From a virus: a stretch of DNA of 42,438 nucleotides. Within the stretch, counting starts at the first letter, position 1; each line of letters opens with the position of its first letter. The stretch is taken from positions 1 to 42,438 of the IMG/VR virus record IMGVR_UViG_3300044591_000287. One strand, 5' to 3'. The position numbers were made by a program, and so were the translations under genes. Below the pieces are notes generated by a model that had not been told where the DNA came from, ran no database searches, and saw only the letters and a list, made by a program, of their open reading frames with translations. Below, one piece after another: positions 1,011 to 36,184 of this stretch.

Positions 1011-1206
1011 CTGCACATCTAGGCAGACATACATCGTCATGACCAATCAACTTGACGATGGCACTATTGTTAGACGTCGCCACTGCAGGGCCTGCGATCA
1101 TCGGTGGTACACGCAGCAACCAGCCGAAGTGCAGGTGCCGCGCTGCCTATTGCAGTGGTCCAATAAAAAGTACATCATCGCTATCCGCAACAATGATCCT
1201 TTGTGA
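982..1206 (+). CDS. Zinc-ribbon protein, NrdR-like N-terminal type
   Basis: A 74-aa protein with two Cys pairs, C-P-S-C at residues 8-11 and C-R-A-C at 35-38. Between them sits an Arg-Arg-Arg strand, as in the N-terminal zinc ribbon of NrdR-type regulators (V-R-R-R-H-C-R-A-C). It lacks the ATP-cone domain of real NrdR, so it is a free zinc ribbon, perhaps a nucleic-acid or protein adaptor. It overlaps its upstream neighbour by 29 bases and the dcd start by 14 bases. Confidence 0.65.
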   Translation: MPAIQVQCPSCTSRQTYIVMTNQLDDGTIVRRRHCRACDHRWYTQQPAEVQVPRCLLQWSNKKYIIAIRNNDPL

Positions 1207-1744
1207 CACCGAGATCCACGACCTGATCGAACAGGGCATGGTGCAGCATCACCAGCAAGAGCTGATCAACCCTGCCAGCTTGGACCTGCGACTTGGCAAT
1301 CTGATCATGCTTGAATCGGTGGAGTCGCACCAGATGATTCCACTGTCGATCAAGGACTACACCGCCGAGCATCCGTATCAGTTGGTGCCAGGGCAGTTCA
1401 TCCTTGCGCAGACCATCGAGACGTTCGTCATGCCGGAGGATGTCGCCGGGTTGTTCTTCCTAAAGTCAAGCCGCGCACGCGAGGGTTATGAGAACCTGCA
1501 CGCCGGCTATGCCGACCCAGGCTGGCATGGCAGCGCACTAACGCTGGAACTCAAGAATGCCCGGCAGTTGCAGCCGCTGCCGATCTATCCAGGGCTGAAG
1601 ATCGGGCAAATGGTATTCTTCCGCATGAGCCAACGCCCGGCACTGAGCTACGCGCTGACTGGCAGCTACAACAACGACCAGCTAGTCGCGGCCTCCAAGC
1701 AGTTCAGCAGCCGCAGCCAGATGCCACGGTTCAACGCTGCATGA
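1193..1744 (+). CDS. dcd: dCTP deaminase
   Basis: A 183-aa protein of normal length for the dCTP deaminase/dUTPase-fold family, which turns dCTP into dUTP in the cytoplasm. Visible landmarks are INPASLDLRLG near the N-terminus, the substrate-binding S-S-R-A-R motif, ADPGWHGSALTLELKN (the Glu after the Trp-Gly turn is the position of the catalytic base) and the PGLKIGQMVFF strand. The ATG at 1193 gives the family start M-I-L-C-D. Two longer in-frame extensions lack the fold. No dUTPase or thymidylate synthase was seen nearby, so the product either feeds host enzymes or the protein has both activities. Confidence 0.92.
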   Translation: MILCDTEIHDLIEQGMVQHHQQELINPASLDLRLGNLIMLESVESHQMIPLSIKDYTAEHPYQLVPGQFILAQTIETFVMPEDVAGLFFLKSSRAREGYENLHAGYADPGWHGSALTLELKNARQLQPLPIYPGLKIGQMVFFRMSQRPALSYALTGSYNNDQLVAASKQFSSRSQMPRFNAA

Positions 1745-1925: not shown

Positions 1926-2822
1926 ATGTCTGACAGCATCAAGAACTATCTCAACAGTATCGCCAAGTATCCACTGTTGACACCGCAGCAAGAGATACAA
2001 CTTGGGAGGCGCGTGCAGCGGTTGCGTGAGCTGCAATCACTGGATCGCCCGTTGACCAATGCCGAACAGCGTGAGAGGCGCAGCGGTGAACGCGCCCGCC
2101 AGCGGTTCATCCAGTGCAACCTGCAACTGGTCGTGCATGTCGCCCGCAGGTACGACAAGCGCAACAACAAGACCATGGAGCTACTCGACCTGATCCAAGA
2201 GGGCAACATCGGCCTATCGCGTGCTGTTGAGCTGTTCGACCCGAGCCGCGGCTACAAGTTCTCGACCTACGCCTACTGGTGGATCCGCCAAGGCATCACG
2301 CGCGCATTGATCAGCAGCGATGCCATCATCCGGCTGCCAATCGGCGTGCACGAGACGATGTACAAGATCAACCGCACGATCCAGGCTCTCAGCCATCAGC
2401 TCGGCTACCAACCGACCATCACCAGAGTGGCAGAAGAGATTGACATGGACCCCGGCGAGTTGTCCAATTTGCTCCGGCAAACCTATACCGTTACCAGCAT
2501 CGACCAGCAAATCAACAACTCAGAAGGCCATAGCATTGTCGACACCATTGCTGACCCCAATGTAGTTGACAATGACATCAGCCAAGATGTGCAGATCATG
2601 CTGCGTTACGTTGACCAGTACCTAGACGATAGAACCAAAGCAGTTATTGAAGCGCGGTCGTGTTATCCAGCCGTCACATGGACGCAGCTTGAACGCGAGT
2701 ATGGCATCTCAAAGACTGCCCTGTACGACATCTATAAGCGCGGCGTCGGTCGCATCCGTATGCTGATGAGCAACCCCCTGACGGACACGCCCCTTGGAAC
2801 CAACGATCAAGCGTCACGGTGA
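1926..2822 (+). CDS. Sigma-70 family RNA polymerase sigma factor, group 2-like
   Basis: A 298-aa sigma factor. Region 1.2 is at residues 4-34 (IKNYLNSIAKYPLLTPQQEI). Region 2 is at 55-135, with the core-binding NLQLVVHVARRY, then LLDLIQEGNIGLSRAVELFD and the -10-reading helix FSTYAYWWIRQGITRAL. Region 3 is at 140-215 and a divergent region 4 at 225-281 ends in a helix-turn-helix. The wording of regions 1.2 and 2 is like group 2 sigma factors of cyanobacteria. Region 4 is much less conserved, so its -35 preference may be phage-specific. It is the last gene of the rightward block and could redirect host polymerase to late promoters. That regulatory role is an inference. Confidence 0.93.
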   Translation: MSDSIKNYLNSIAKYPLLTPQQEIQLGRRVQRLRELQSLDRPLTNAEQRERRSGERARQRFIQCNLQLVVHVARRYDKRNNKTMELLDLIQEGNIGLSRAVELFDPSRGYKFSTYAYWWIRQGITRALISSDAIIRLPIGVHETMYKINRTIQALSHQLGYQPTITRVAEEIDMDPGELSNLLRQTYTVTSIDQQINNSEGHSIVDTIADPNVVDNDISQDVQIMLRYVDQYLDDRTKAVIEARSCYPAVTWTQLEREYGISKTALYDIYKRGVGRIRMLMSNPLTDTPLGTNDQASR

Positions 2823-29138: not shown

Positions 29139-30179
29139 TTACTCCCGGATTTGAATTGGCATGATGAGATATGTCTGCTCTGTCATGCTAGTCGGCGTCA
29201 ACACCACTGGGGTTGTTGCGCTGTTGGCTGACAGTGTAACAGTCTCCGCCGATCGCATAGCCTTCAGGCCATCGAGCAGGTAGTGCACGTTAAACGCCCA
29301 CGACCCAGTGGCAGAGCCCTCGAAGGTGATCAGCTCTTTGCCGTTATTGGCATCGGCTTCAGCGGTGATGGTGAGCGCACCACCCTTGGCCGTGAGCTTG
29401 ACGGCATTGTTGTGCGCCTCAGCGATCAACGCGACGCGCTCTAGGCATCGGGTGAACCGGTGCCGGTCCATGGTCATGGCGTGCTCGAAGCTGGCGGGGA
29501 TTAGCGCTGCCACGTTGGGATAGGTGCCATCGAGGATGCGGCTGTACATGACGATGCCATCACCAGCGTCAATGACCGCCTGCCCCTTGGCTGCTGCTAC
29601 TGTCACCATCCGATCCTGCAGCAGCTTCATAGTCGCTGCCGGCAGCACCAGGTCAATGCCATCGGGCAGCGCCACAGGCACGCGCATGAGCCGATGGCCG
29701 TCTGTGGACTCCATGAACCCAGCAGCGAGGTGAATGCCCTGCAGGATCTGCTTACTGGCATCGGTGCTGACGGCTGCCATGCAAGCACGCACGCCAGCGG
29801 TGAGGTCCAGCTCAGCACCAGGAGCCTCCACAGCGGGCAATGCCGGATAATCCGCCGCATCCTGCACAGCAAGGCCGTAGGAGCCGCTGGAGGCCGTCAC
29901 AGCGCCGTCTGACAGGGTCACAGGCTCACCGTCGTCCATGCGGCTCACAAGGCCAGCCAGCAGCCGATACGGCAGCGCCACGGTGCCAGATGTGTCTACG
30001 GCTGCGGGAACGGTGACCGTGATGCCGAGGTCCAGGTTGAATCCGGTGACGGTCATGGTGCCGCCGCTGGCAGCTACCAGGCAGCAGGACAGGATCGGAT
30101 GGCTGTTGCTGGTGCTGATGGCCGGCGCAATGGTGCGCAGTGCATGGCTGAGATCAGCCTGTGTGGTGATGAGTTTCAT
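29139..30179 (-). CDS. dnaN: DNA polymerase III beta sliding clamp homologue
   Basis: A 346-aa clamp with the three-domain pattern. Domain 1 has PAISTSNSHPILSCCL and MTVTGFNLDLGI. Domain 2 has LQGIHLA and FMESTDGHRLMRV. Domain 3 has the final YLIMPIQIRE, like the HLIMPVRL end of bacterial clamps. It would encircle DNA and tether polymerase. The window contains no replicative polymerase, so this clamp probably serves the host Pol III or displaces the host clamp. Its place between the regulator genes and the terminase genes is unusual. Confidence 0.92.
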   Translation of the reverse strand: MKLITTQADLSHALRTIAPAISTSNSHPILSCCLVAASGGTMTVTGFNLDLGITVTVPAAVDTSGTVALPYRLLAGLVSRMDDGEPVTLSDGAVTASSGSYGLAVQDAADYPALPAVEAPGAELDLTAGVRACMAAVSTDASKQILQGIHLAAGFMESTDGHRLMRVPVALPDGIDLVLPAATMKLLQDRMVTVAAAKGQAVIDAGDGIVMYSRILDGTYPNVAALIPASFEHAMTMDRHRFTRCLERVALIAEAHNNAVKLTAKGGALTITAEADANNGKELITFEGSATGSWAFNVHYLLDGLKAMRSAETVTLSANSATTPVVLTPTSMTEQTYLIMPIQIRE

Positions 30180-33163: not shown

Positions 33164-33337
33164 ATGAACCCTATCTATCGAATCACCTACCAACGCCCTT
33201 GGGGCCCTTGCGTTGTCAACACAACCCAATTTGCCAATGAAAACGATTTAAGAGCAAGATTCAATCAATCATACAAAAATTGTGAGATTCTAAAAATAGA
33301 AGACGTAACCTTAGAGTTTTTGCCCAAGGGAATATGA
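33164..33337 (+). CDS. 57-aa hypothetical protein at the head of the accessory cluster
   Basis: It reads MNPIYRITYQRPWGPCVVNT, then a helix (FANENDLRARFNQSYKN) and strands (CEILKIEDVTLEFL). The gene is A+T-rich, about 25 percent GC in its middle part, unlike the 58 percent of the neighbouring primase gene. Its stop overlaps the next start as ATGA, so it is coupled to the PAPS-reductase-like gene. No family is recognised. Confidence 0.65.
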   Translation: MNPIYRITYQRPWGPCVVNTTQFANENDLRARFNQSYKNCEILKIEDVTLEFLPKGI

Positions 33338-34650
33338 AAACCTATTTAGAAATAGACGTCTACCAAGCCGCCATTGAGCGCTTGGATTTTATTTTTGAGC
33401 ATTTCAGCCGCGTTTACGTCTCTTTTTCTGGCGGCAAGGACAGCGGCGTTCTCTTGAATCTTGTTTGCGATTATGTCAGAAATCGAAAACTGCCAATAAA
33501 GATTGGCGTCCAAATAATGGACAATGAAGCCAACTATACTCATAGCGAGGAGTTTATGCACCGCATTCTCCAAGCTAATCGCGACATCCTAGATATTTAT
33601 TGGTGCTGCCTGCCAATTACTTTGCCATGCACTGTTTCGTCATATGAAATCGACTGGCAGTGCTGGGGCGAACACGATCGACACCGCTGGATTCGCCCAA
33701 TGTCAAAACACGATTACATTGTAAACCTTGAAAATCACCCCTTTGGCGATTTGTTCGTTGAAAACATGGACTACGCTACTTTTTGGGACATGTTTGCAGA
33801 GTGGTATAGCCAGGGGCAGCCATGCGCCAACTTGATCGGCATTCGTACTGTTGAATCTCTTAATCGTTTTCGAGCTATTCTTAACCAGGACAAAGAGACC
33901 ATGCTAGGTCGGATGTGGACAAAGAAAAATACAGATCACACTTACAACTGTTATCCAATTTACGATTGGCGGACTGAAGACATTTGGACCGCCAACGCAA
34001 AGTTTGGATGGGATTACAACAAACTTTACGACGTGTTCTATATGGCCGGCATTCCTATTAAAAAAATGCGTGTTGCTTCGCCTTTTATGTCAGAGTCAAA
34101 ATCAAGCCTTGCAATGTATCGGGTGATTGACCCGCAAGTATGGGCTAGGTTATGCGCTAGGGTTGGCGGCGCTAATTTTATGGCTACTTATGGGAAACAA
34201 CTTGATTATAAATCTTTTAAGCTCCCAGCTGGTCATACCTGGAAATCATTTGTAAAGTTCTTGCTTGCTACGTTACCGGATCAGTCAAGCGCAAATTTTA
34301 AGCAGCGCTTCATTCAGTCAATCCGTTACTGGGGACGAGTGGGGCGCGGACTACCCGAGTTTATTATTGATGCCCTTGGTCGTATTGGCATTCGTTTCTA
34401 CATCAATGGCACCACACGGCACGGCGGCAACAATCTACGCCGTGTTGTAATCAAGGTGCCACCTGATCAACTTGATGATTTGCCATGCCATAACAGCATG
34501 GTCACTTCATGGAAACGCTTTGCTATCACGGTTTTAAAAAACGACCACACGTGCAAATACCTGGGACTGGCGCCAACCCAAGAACAACAGCGCCGCCAAA
34601 GGTCAATCCAACGCAAGTACAGCCAAGTCCTTAATCGCTCCATCAAATGA
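33334..34650 (+). CDS. PAPS-reductase-like / IbrA-like PP-loop protein
   Basis: A 438-aa protein. The PP-loop S-G-G-K-D-S at 32-37 binds ATP or PAPS. NEANYTHSEEF follows, and IGIRTVESLNRFRAI carries the conserved Arg and Glu of the family. Residues 150-320 contain NCYPIYDWRTEDIWTANAKF. The C-terminus holds SWKRFAITVLKNDHTCKYLG, typical of the IbrA group, not of assimilatory CysH. IbrA relatives occur in phages beside a ParB protein, as here. They are related to DndC, which works in DNA phosphorothioation. The gene is much A+T-richer than the phage backbone, so it is probably acquired. The true reaction is unknown. Confidence 0.88.
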   Translation: MKTYLEIDVYQAAIERLDFIFEHFSRVYVSFSGGKDSGVLLNLVCDYVRNRKLPIKIGVQIMDNEANYTHSEEFMHRILQANRDILDIYWCCLPITLPCTVSSYEIDWQCWGEHDRHRWIRPMSKHDYIVNLENHPFGDLFVENMDYATFWDMFAEWYSQGQPCANLIGIRTVESLNRFRAILNQDKETMLGRMWTKKNTDHTYNCYPIYDWRTEDIWTANAKFGWDYNKLYDVFYMAGIPIKKMRVASPFMSESKSSLAMYRVIDPQVWARLCARVGGANFMATYGKQLDYKSFKLPAGHTWKSFVKFLLATLPDQSSANFKQRFIQSIRYWGRVGRGLPEFIIDALGRIGIRFYINGTTRHGGNNLRRVVIKVPPDQLDDLPCHNSMVTSWKRFAITVLKNDHTCKYLGLAPTQEQQRRQRSIQRKYSQVLNRSIK

Positions 34651-35588
34651 AAATCCTAAACGTTTCTCAGCTCTCTTCTGATCGCATCGTTAACTGTCCC
34701 AAAGGTGGTTTTACCAGCCATCGCTTGTTAACAGAAGACGATGGCATGGGATACAGCATGACCAAGACCATTGTGCATCCCGGCAAACCACACCGTTGGC
34801 ACTATCAACACCACCTCGAAACTTGCTACTGCGTCAGCGGCAAAGGTCTGCTCATTAACGAAGCAACACAAGAGATTCACGTTATCGGGCCTGATGTGAC
34901 TTATGTGCTTGACAAGCATGATCCTCACATTTTTGAAGCTCTAGAACCGACCACGCTTATTTGCGTTTTTAACCCGCCACTTAAAGGCAATGAGCTACAT
35001 GACGAGAACGACTCTTACCCTTGGCGATCCCCGGTTTATTCCGTACGCAGTATTCCTATCGAGAAAGTTACCGCCAATGATTACAACCCCAACTCTGTGG
35101 CGCCGCCTGAAATGGCACTACTCGAAACATCCATCTGGGAAGATGGTTACACGCAACCTGTCGTTGTCGTGCATGATGCCGAGCGTGACCTTTATGTGGT
35201 CGTTGACGGTTTTCACCGTTATTTAACTCTAAGGAACAGTCAGCGCATCCGCGAACGCGAAGGCGGCCGGTTGCCTGTAGTAGTACTGCGCAAAGAATTG
35301 CATGACAGGATGGCATCAACCATCCGGCACAATCGCGCTCGTGGTTCGCACAACATTGAACTGATGAGCGTAATTGTTGCTGAGCTGATTGAGATGGGCA
35401 AAGGCGACGCATGGATTTGCAAGCACATTGGCATGAGCCCTGATGAACTTTTGCGCCTTAAGCAAGTTACAGGCTTGGCCTCGCTGTTTTTGGGTAAAGA
35501 TTTCAGCAAGGCGTGGGACGTGGAACAAATCGACAACTTGACGGAGGATCTAGAACATGAAGCTCAAGAGAATCTGGTTACCCATTGA
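34647..35588 (+). CDS. Fusion of an ectoine-synthase-like cupin with a ParB (IbrB-like) domain
   Basis: A 313-aa protein. Residues 1-125 look like EctC, a cupin enzyme: Glu58 (HHLETCYCVSG), Tyr86 (TYVLDKHD) and His94 (HDPH) match the metal ligands I remember for EctC at 57, 85 and 93. CVFNPPL and NELHDE match substrate-contact parts (Cys106, Phe108, Glu116, His118). Residues 130-285 are a ParB/Srx domain with VVVDGFHRYLTL, followed by a helix-turn-helix-like end (ICKHIGMSPDELLRLKQV). The start overlaps the PAPS-reductase stop as ATGA. EctA and EctB are absent, so the cupin may sense or modify another small molecule. I know of no described EctC-ParB fusion. Confidence 0.88.
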   Translation: MKILNVSQLSSDRIVNCPKGGFTSHRLLTEDDGMGYSMTKTIVHPGKPHRWHYQHHLETCYCVSGKGLLINEATQEIHVIGPDVTYVLDKHDPHIFEALEPTTLICVFNPPLKGNELHDENDSYPWRSPVYSVRSIPIEKVTANDYNPNSVAPPEMALLETSIWEDGYTQPVVVVHDAERDLYVVVDGFHRYLTLRNSQRIREREGGRLPVVVLRKELHDRMASTIRHNRARGSHNIELMSVIVAELIEMGKGDAWICKHIGMSPDELLRLKQVTGLASLFLGKDFSKAWDVEQIDNLTEDLEHEAQENLVTH

Positions 35589-35982
35589 TGCCTGGGAGGA
35601 GATCCACTGCAACATGTGGGGCGAGGTAGCTAATCGCCGCCTCTACCTGCAAAGGGCCGTTATCTTTACCGGCAATCACCGCCTCTACGGGCGCTATATG
35701 CAACGGGTCACGGTGGAGTGGCCCAACAGCTGCATCAACGCGCTGACTGACTACAACCTCAATCGCAAAGCATGGATCGGGCACGCAGCTTGCGCGCTGG
35801 CTCTTCGATGCCCTGAAGACATCACCAGACAAGCATGGGGACTTTTAACCGATGAGCAACGGACATTGGCGAACCGACAAGCGAATCGAGCCATTCGCGC
35901 CTGGGAGATGCGCTACCGCCAGAGTCTCGGAATACGTGCGGACGTGGAAAACCCGCTGTTATTCGCACGAGATTCCCGATGA
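35557..35982 (+). CDS. Conserved small protein of the IbrAB-type cluster
   Basis: A 141-aa protein. It has DAWEEIHCNMWGEV, VEWPNSCINALTDYNLNRKA, WIGHAACALALRCPEDITRQ and AWGLLTDEQRTLANRQANRA. It is helical and well structured. I recall similar proteins beside ParB-like genes in other phages, but no function is known. A good ribosome site (GGAGG at 35542-35546) precedes the ATG. It overlaps the cupin-ParB gene by 32 bases. Confidence 0.8.
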   Translation: MKLKRIWLPIDAWEEIHCNMWGEVANRRLYLQRAVIFTGNHRLYGRYMQRVTVEWPNSCINALTDYNLNRKAWIGHAACALALRCPEDITRQAWGLLTDEQRTLANRQANRAIRAWEMRYRQSLGIRADVENPLLFARDSR

Positions 35983-36184
35983 AGTGCCGGCCAAGGTTGC
36001 AGCCTCAGGCCGTGCTCCATCTTGGAAAGCTGTAGCACTTGCTTTGCTGCAAAATGACCTGCACCTTTATCAACTGGGTTATTCGCGTCCTGCATACGAG
36101 CGACAACGACGTGCCTTGACAATGGCGCAAATTGCTATTCATGGAACGCCAGCCGAAGGTACGCAACTGGAACTGCCACTATGA
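35852..36184 (+). CDS. Stand-alone copy of the IbrA C-terminal (DUF3440-like) module
   Basis: A 110-aa frame. The useful part is residues 28-85: VRTWKTRCYSHEIPDEVPA, then PSWKAVALALLQNDLHLYQL and GYSRPAYERQRRAL. The second half matches the last part of the PAPS-reductase-like protein (TSWKRFAITVLKND, then an L-G and a Gln-Arg-Arg run). DUF3440/IbrA proteins carry IPDE and SWK-ND motifs in one chain, as I remember. The start is uncertain: ATG at 35852 overlaps the previous gene by 131 bases, and GTG at 35936 also fits. The stop overlaps the helicase start as ATGA. Confidence 0.68.
   Translation: MSNGHWRTDKRIEPFAPGRCATARVSEYVRTWKTRCYSHEIPDEVPAKVAASGRAPSWKAVALALLQNDLHLYQLGYSRPAYERQRRALTMAQIAIHGTPAEGTQLELPL

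Follow-up and report, generated by a model that had tools for sequence, protein, structure and literature searches.

An EctC-like cupin fused to IbrB as part of a phage IbrA/IbrB module

The locus and its genes

The window, that is, the whole stretch of DNA analysed, comprises the 42,438 nt of the IMG/VR virus record IMGVR_UViG_3300044591_000287 (positions 1 to 42,438). Between positions 33334 and 36184 it carries the genes of an IbrA-type protein, of a fusion between an EctC-like cupin and IbrB, and of two further proteins named here X and Y (Table 1). The fusion is almost certainly the middle of a phage module with the order IbrA, cupin::IbrB, X, Y. Elsewhere in the window, a sigma-70-type factor with regions 1.2, 2 and 3 and an adjoining dCTP-deaminase-like protein are encoded at 1926-2822 (+) and 1052-1744 (+), and the gene at 29139-30179 (-) specifies a DNA polymerase III beta sliding clamp of bacterial type, complete in its three domains.

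Table 1. Genes, domains and motifs of the IbrA, cupin::IbrB, X, Y locus (positions in the window)
Feature	Position	Strand	Evidence and remarks
IbrA-type protein, 438 aa, PP-loop PAPS-reductase-like (SGGKDSG) + DUF3440	33334..34650	+	PF11922 4.3e-53; PF01507 9.5e-9; PHROG 2302 2.2e-108
EctC-like cupin::IbrB fusion, 313 aa	34647..35588	+	4-nt ATGA overlap with IbrA; AlphaFold2 model md79fdfb9ddd1, pLDDT 88.4
EctC-like metallo-cupin domain, residues 1-126	34647..35024	+	Pfam 2.9e-37; PDB 5bxx sequence E 3e-26; Foldseek 5bxx; 83/83 conservation
Predicted iron ligands of the cupin domain	E58 34818-34820, Y86 34902-34904, H94 34926-34928	+	
ParB-CTPase-fold domain of IbrB, residues 133-231	35043..35339	+	Pfam ParB_N; Foldseek KorB 8qa9, Noc 7nfu, ParB 7bm8
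DGFHRY motif, residues 187-192	35205-35222	+	
Helical segment of IbrB, residues 237-280	35355..35486	+	Predicted helices 237-249, 254-261, 265-280; KorB/Noc/ParB structure match
Protein X, 141 aa, uncharacterised	35557..35982	+	Starts inside the fusion gene after GGAGG
Protein Y, 110 aa, detached relative of the IbrA C-terminal tail	35852..36184	+	Overlaps X in another frame

The reading frame of the fusion runs through its 313 codons without interruption. Residues 11-126 match the Pfam family Ectoine_synth PF06339 (2.9e-37, 128 bits against a curated cut-off of 27), and the protein scores 135.7 against the NCBIfam family PRK13290 'ectoine synthase', whose cut-off is 128. Residues 133-198 match ParB_N slightly under the Pfam cut-off (8e-5), and residues 75-306 match the ParB-like family PHROG 2159 (6.8e-77). 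These assignments, with which the predicted folds agree, bear out the sequence-only reading of the gene as an EctC-like cupin and a ParB domain in one protein. The DGFHRY motif to which that reading had pointed lies in the second half, and its DGFHR part is invariant in all 83 aligned phage proteins.

A search of other phages retrieved 80 independent IMG/VR loci, on other viral contigs, that encode the fusion at whole or nearly whole length, and its dN/dS of 0.02-0.07 indicates strong purifying selection in both halves. Hence the fusion is real and maintained, and an assembly or frameshift artefact is ruled out. A small-molecule enzyme domain joined to a DNA- or nucleotide-type domain, as proposed from the letters, is therefore present as an intact open reading frame that recurs in phages. 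The fusion was also considered as the partition protein of a ParABS system; this was ruled out, no ParA partner being found among the window proteins scanned and the family cut-offs being missed (18.4 against 58.45 for parB_part, and likewise under the cut-off for ParB_N).

The layout had been taken to be undescribed, but it is already on record: gp104 of the Mycobacterium phages Gaia (KJ567043; UniProt A0A068F3J9) and Nebkiss is the same cupin::ParB fusion (65.8% identity, 313 aa), located directly after a PAPS-reductase (IbrA) gene as in the window. The Gaia gene, slightly shorter than that of the window, is annotated 'ectoine synthase/ParB multidomain protein', and the same name is given in the Pseudoalteromonas phage XCL1123, where both halves are two adjacent genes. 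A literature search for the fusion returned no paper on its function. Nor is the fusion an isolated novel protein, as had been supposed, for it is the IbrB partner of the adjoining IbrA within a multi-gene module. The original observation is thus confirmed and its interpretation partly supported; what has been found is more aptly regarded as a variant of the phage IbrAB module that carries an EctC cupin.

Predicted structure and pocket of the cupin

An AlphaFold2 model built from an alignment of 24 near-identical fusions reached a pLDDT of 59.6 and was discarded. With a 90-row alignment that included single-domain relatives of both halves, and with no template, the mean pLDDT rose to 88.4; the cupin rows of this alignment include chromosomal EctC proteins, and the predicted fold is thus partly guided by EctC. 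When the model was superposed on known structures by Foldseek, both folds were recovered. The top match was EctC 5bxx (TM 0.96 over the target, rmsd 1.0), the other cupins listed reaching a TM of at most about 0.78, and the second half matched KorB 8qa9, Noc 7nfu and ParB 7bm8. The first domain is therefore predicted to be an EctC-type cupin with its pocket rather than a generic one, in line with the initial proposal. On the model, residues 237-280 of the IbrB half may be read as a helix-turn-helix.

The pocket was compared between 83 aligned phage proteins and the EctC of P. lautus and S. alaskensis. Residues E58, Y86 and H94 of the fusion correspond to the iron ligands Glu-57, Tyr-84 and His-92 (P. 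lautus numbering) and are invariant in 83 of 83, so that the claim that the three metal ligands are kept stands. The companion claim, that substrate contacts of EctC are kept as well, held for S24, R26, T41, Y53 and C106, each invariant in the 83 proteins (F108 is found in 82), and failed for Trp-21, replaced by Phe, and for Asn-38, replaced by Thr. The Trp-21 column is Phe in every one of the 83 proteins with a residue there (F22 in the window protein), and the Asn-38 column, His in S. alaskensis EctC, is Thr in 81.

The loss of Trp-21 extends to the module cupins at large, fused and separate, among which Trp is found in 0 of 40 (Phe in 32, Gly in 6 and Cys in 2), against 41 of 51 chromosomal EctC-type proteins; nor was a Trp present near that column, at residues 15-30, in 20 aligned cupins. 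In EctC, Trp-21 shifts between the substrate- and product-bound states, its replacement by alanine (W21A) leaves 9.7% of the activity, and it is conserved in 437 EctC and 145 orphan EctC proteins, in some of them displaced by two residues (Czech et al., PMC6344544). Module cupins have in common with EctC (5BXX, 5ONM/5ONN/5ONO) and orphan EctC the cupin fold, the E/Y/H iron ligands, R25, T40, Y52, F106 and the C-terminal lid motif, and R25, T40 and Y52 together with the metal ligands are kept in all module cupins compared. They differ from EctC in having lost Trp-21, in having gained C60 and, almost always, W51, in being fused to or adjoining IbrB without EctAB, and in their phylogeny. In the cupin tree, which has few columns and is reliable only for the module-versus-chromosomal split, the 40 module cupins form one clade with a support of 100, apart from the 51 chromosomal EctC-type proteins. 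The simplest reading of these residues is a working metal site with an altered pocket. Since Trp-21 is lost in all 40, the substrate of the cupin is probably different from that of EctC.

The IbrA/IbrB pair and proteins X and Y

The C-terminal half of the fusion is recognised as the IbrB of an IbrA/IbrB pair because the IbrA gene adjoins it by the ATGA overlap, which most of the 80 loci retain; the ParB half is, moreover, 60.7% identical to the annotated IbrB of Streptococcus phage CHPC1230. Among plain IbrB loci IbrA adjoins in 79 of 80. The ibrAB genes of E. coli prophages and of Streptococcus, Lactobacillus and Flavobacterium phages have the same IbrA (PAPS_reduct + DUF3440), the same IbrB (ParB fold + HTH), the same order and the same adjacency; unlike the window, such plain loci are without cupin and mostly without X and Y, and their IbrA comes from other clades. 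The window IbrA falls short of the PAPS reductase family cysH (16.2 bits against a cut-off of 165.1), and a PDB profile search with it gave nothing useful. A known defence system was rejected, as neither the fusion nor X has a PADLOC match and IbrA has only weak ones, to DndC/BrxP. Phage records label IbrA/IbrB as 'co-activator of prophage gene expression', a label which, as cited in PMC10434257, traces to Sandt et al. 2002 (J Bacteriol 184:3640).

Sampled bacterial genomes were screened with IbrA, which was found in 10 of 798 (7 of 399 and 3 of 399 in the two phyla). A cupin beside IbrA was seen in none of these ten; a motif scan with fused cupins only says little about separate cupins. In the 33334-35588 region of the window the GC content is 45% for IbrA and 47% for the cupin half, against 57% for the whole window, which suggests that both may have been acquired from elsewhere.

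Of the 106 cupin loci, many of them near relatives of the window, 98 have an X homologue and 93 a separate Y; of the 135 cupin-less IbrAB loci, 31 and 5 do, respectively. The Y profile also matches the C-termini of IbrA proteins (1e-7 to 1e-16), and the N-terminus of Y is common to the Y proteins of loci L237 and L082. For X no Pfam, PDB or PADLOC family was found, one member matching PHROG 7052 weakly. The order of the genes varies, being IbrA-cupin-X-Y-IbrB in L347, X-Y-IbrA-cupin-IbrB in L364 and IbrA-X-Y-IbrB in L311, and X::Y and Y::IbrB fusions occur (L392, L393). From this linkage X and Y are taken to be members of the module, which is new here. The genes of X and Y overlap by 131 bases (35852-35982) in different frames, and L237 has a similar arrangement.

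An exchangeable slot and the clade of IbrA that carries the cupin

In some plain loci 390-440 bases separate IbrA and IbrB, and they contain either an EctC-like cupin or an acetyltransferase. A separate cupin gene was detected, in a scan with IbrA, in L335, L343, L346, L347, L350, L361, L364, L365, L369, L373, L379, L380, L389, L393 and others; its presence between IbrA and IbrB in many phages is new here. So is the occupation of the cupin slot by acetyltransferases in other IbrAB loci (L321, L322, L325, L286, L288, L295, L305, L260, L351 and, more weakly, L276 and L372), the Pfam GNAT assignment being confirmed for L286, L260 and L351 and not for L276 or L372. The slot genes of L383 and L400 were assigned by tblastn. 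That the same operon slot is filled by a cyclase in some loci and by an acetyltransferase in others suggests that the product of IbrA and IbrB is chemically tailored.

A few loci have other genes at this position. Two cupin-clade loci (L390:3868-4617 and L359:5519-6181) have a gene for a 1-Cys peroxiredoxin within or beside the slot, a curious neighbour since IbrB belongs to the ParB/sulfiredoxin superfamily. A PD-(D/E)XK-like nuclease gene occupies the slot of L269 and L391, in the latter by similarity only. The peroxiredoxin and nuclease genes indicate that the slot may take unrelated cargo too. Inspection by eye also showed a homing-endonuclease-like (HNH/NUMOD-like) tail in frame with the IbrB start at L263:2404-3492 and L272:2299-2982.

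Among 112 dereplicated IbrA proteins placed in a tree, the 31 rows that had been labelled with a cupin all fall in one clade of 35 rows (SH-aLRT 100, branch 0.43). A tblastn check revealed a cupin in three of the other four rows of this clade as well, which brings the count to 34 of 35, although in L359, counted among the 34, the EctC-family cupin is short and diverged. The exception is L390, in which the peroxiredoxin gene fills the slot. Among the other IbrA rows the cupin label was found in 0 of 77. In this tree the cupin is hence restricted to one IbrA clade, which is new here. A Fisher value for this link takes no account of relatedness among the rows, and cupin and clade are to be seen as a single tight association rather than as the result of many independent gains. 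The clade is set apart by 33 IbrA columns and by a Cys tetrad (C91, C92, C99 and C110), as expected if the cupin accompanies a changed substrate. The loci with the fused form do not group as a single clade in the IbrA tree, an indication of repeated fusion or fission.

Viral ectoine synthases and the ectoine pathway

Two scans of viral contigs were made, one with a mixed alignment and the other with chromosomal EctC proteins only. Examination of the best 80 matches per scan, by which a rare true EctC could be missed, gave 117 distinct viral EctC-family cupins, of which 69 are fused to IbrB and 45 have IbrA and IbrB within 4 kb. The remaining three are located where the contig ends, and beside them at most one of the two partners was visible; one of the three runs into the start of IbrB. 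Therefore 114 of the 117 sampled viral cupins are tied to IbrA/IbrB, a result that is new here. The observation that no other ectoine gene accompanies the fusion was upheld: searches of the window and of the complete records of Gaia and XCL1123 found neither EctA nor EctB. These are phage records only, and the host may supply the enzymes.

The missing EctA and EctB, together with the loss of Trp-21 in 40 of 40 cupins, rule out a true ectoine pathway in the module. It might be argued that the cupin is nevertheless a genuine ectoine synthase, encoded by an auxiliary metabolic gene that would help the host to withstand osmotic stress: it scores above the cut-off of the NCBIfam ectoine synthase family, viral ectoine synthase is so interpreted in a 2026 virome paper (PMC13079714), and an orphan EctC of P. 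syringae yielded ectoine in a heterologous host (PMC5924519). Given the absence of EctA and EctB from the three phage records, the replacement of a residue whose loss leaves so little activity in EctC (PMC6344544), and the linkage of almost all sampled viral EctC-family genes to IbrA/IbrB, such a role seems very improbable. Synthesis of the salt protectant ectoine is thus probably not the role of viral 'ectoine synthase' genes; their function may instead be to tailor a chemical modification, possibly one carried by nucleic acid. For viral ecology this is a warning, as genes that have been read as auxiliary genes for osmotic stress (PMC13079714) are, in the sampled viral collection, almost all parts of the module.

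Proposed function

PP-loop enzymes use ATP for substrate activation, and EctC achieves ring closure through the elimination of water. The explanation that best fits the data, although its probability falls somewhat short of even, is a modification module built on IbrAB, in which the tailoring enzyme can be exchanged. The module would attach or tailor a chemical group, the carrier being nucleic acid or a bound metabolite. IbrA, as a PP-loop ATP-pyrophosphatase, would activate a substrate by adenylation. IbrB would bind a nucleotide and, by its helix-turn-helix, contact nucleic acid, most likely DNA, so that the tailoring enzyme would be held at its work site. The iron cupin would close (or open) a ring by an EctC-like water elimination on an acyl-amine group other than N-gamma-acetyl-diaminobutyrate, and X and Y would be partners in the complex, Y replacing the IbrA tail. 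ParB-fold proteins do bind NTPs and act as NTP switches, their nucleotide specificity being unreadable from sequence (PMC12704722). The weakest step is the placement of the product on nucleic acid, suggested by the helix-turn-helix-like segment and by other phage modules. Two results count against the proposal: the scanned proteins of the window yielded no further DNA-hypermodification enzyme, and the peroxiredoxin and nuclease genes of a few loci indicate that the slot may take unrelated cargo. Against the nucleic-acid reading it also counts that GNATs and cupins can act on proteins or free metabolites. A broader proposal is conceivable though rather doubtful. In it, IbrAB would form the centre of a phage pathway, so far undescribed, for the modification of nucleic acid, and the exchangeable tailoring enzyme would be an EctC-like cyclase (fused or separate) in one IbrA clade and an acetyltransferase in others, with X and Y as further components. 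Chromosomal EctC proteins would then be relatives of an enzyme that acts on a substrate bound to or destined for a macromolecule.

The same genes could be explained by a ligand-gated regulator, in which the cupin would be a sensor that switches an NTP-dependent ParB-type clamp, IbrB, with IbrA co-activating phage or prophage genes. The label that IbrA and IbrB carry in phage records, the resemblance of the IbrB half to KorB, Noc and ParB, and the known behaviour of ParB-fold proteins as NTP switches (PMC12704722) would favour it. A sensor, however, sits poorly with a cupin that retains a complete metal site and most catalytic contacts, and acetyltransferases in the cupin slot elsewhere fit a tailoring enzyme better; an ATP-pyrophosphatase-type enzyme such as IbrA would also be unusual for a regulator. 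On balance such a regulatory role, and with it the ligand-controlled DNA binding first proposed, appears unlikely but is still a serious rival. Counter-defence or signalling chemistry, with the module acting on free metabolites or nucleotides (an NTP, say, or a signal of host defence) rather than on nucleic acid, is in our estimation a distinctly unlikely function: the HTH-like segment of IbrB points to a nucleic-acid partner and the PADLOC results, weak matches of IbrA apart, give no link to defence, even though the module is enriched in phages (the bacterial genomes sampled seldom have IbrA and have no cupin), PP-loop, GNAT and cupin enzymes often use small molecules, and the ParB-fold relatives SerK and SbnI phosphorylate free serine (PMC12704722).

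That the cupin would merely serve IbrB as a catalytically dead structural or dimerisation domain could be suggested by the dimeric state of EctC (PMC5924519) and by the occurrence of IbrB without cupin in many phages. Metal ligands and pocket residues are nonetheless invariant over 83 divergent proteins, and the cupin also occurs alone as a separate gene, by which a dead domain becomes highly improbable. The cupin variant of the module provides a strong handle on the role of IbrA/IbrB, a widespread phage pair, since the tailoring enzyme travels with one IbrA clade and acetyltransferases are found in others. It also offers a defined system for the role of non-ectoine EctC proteins, a question posed in PMC6344544 and PMC5924519.

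Relation to other systems

Fusions of the ParB-CTPase fold were surveyed in PNAS in 2025 (PMC12704722), where the fold is joined to lineage-specific enzyme domains and is common in phages; the main text of the survey contains no mention of an EctC/cupin fusion or of IbrB. Phage DNA hypermodification by, for example, CmoA/CmoX/CmoY (PMC12783734) likewise combines activating and tailoring enzymes, often with ParB-domain proteins nearby. Pathways of this type have, however, no core enzyme homologous to the IbrAB module. Cysteine dioxygenases are themselves cupins. In the M. abscessus prophage prophiGD21-3, genes 20 and 23 are cysteine-dioxygenase-like and PAPS-reductase-like (PMC8092301), and for this reason they may be an IbrA-cupin module under another name.
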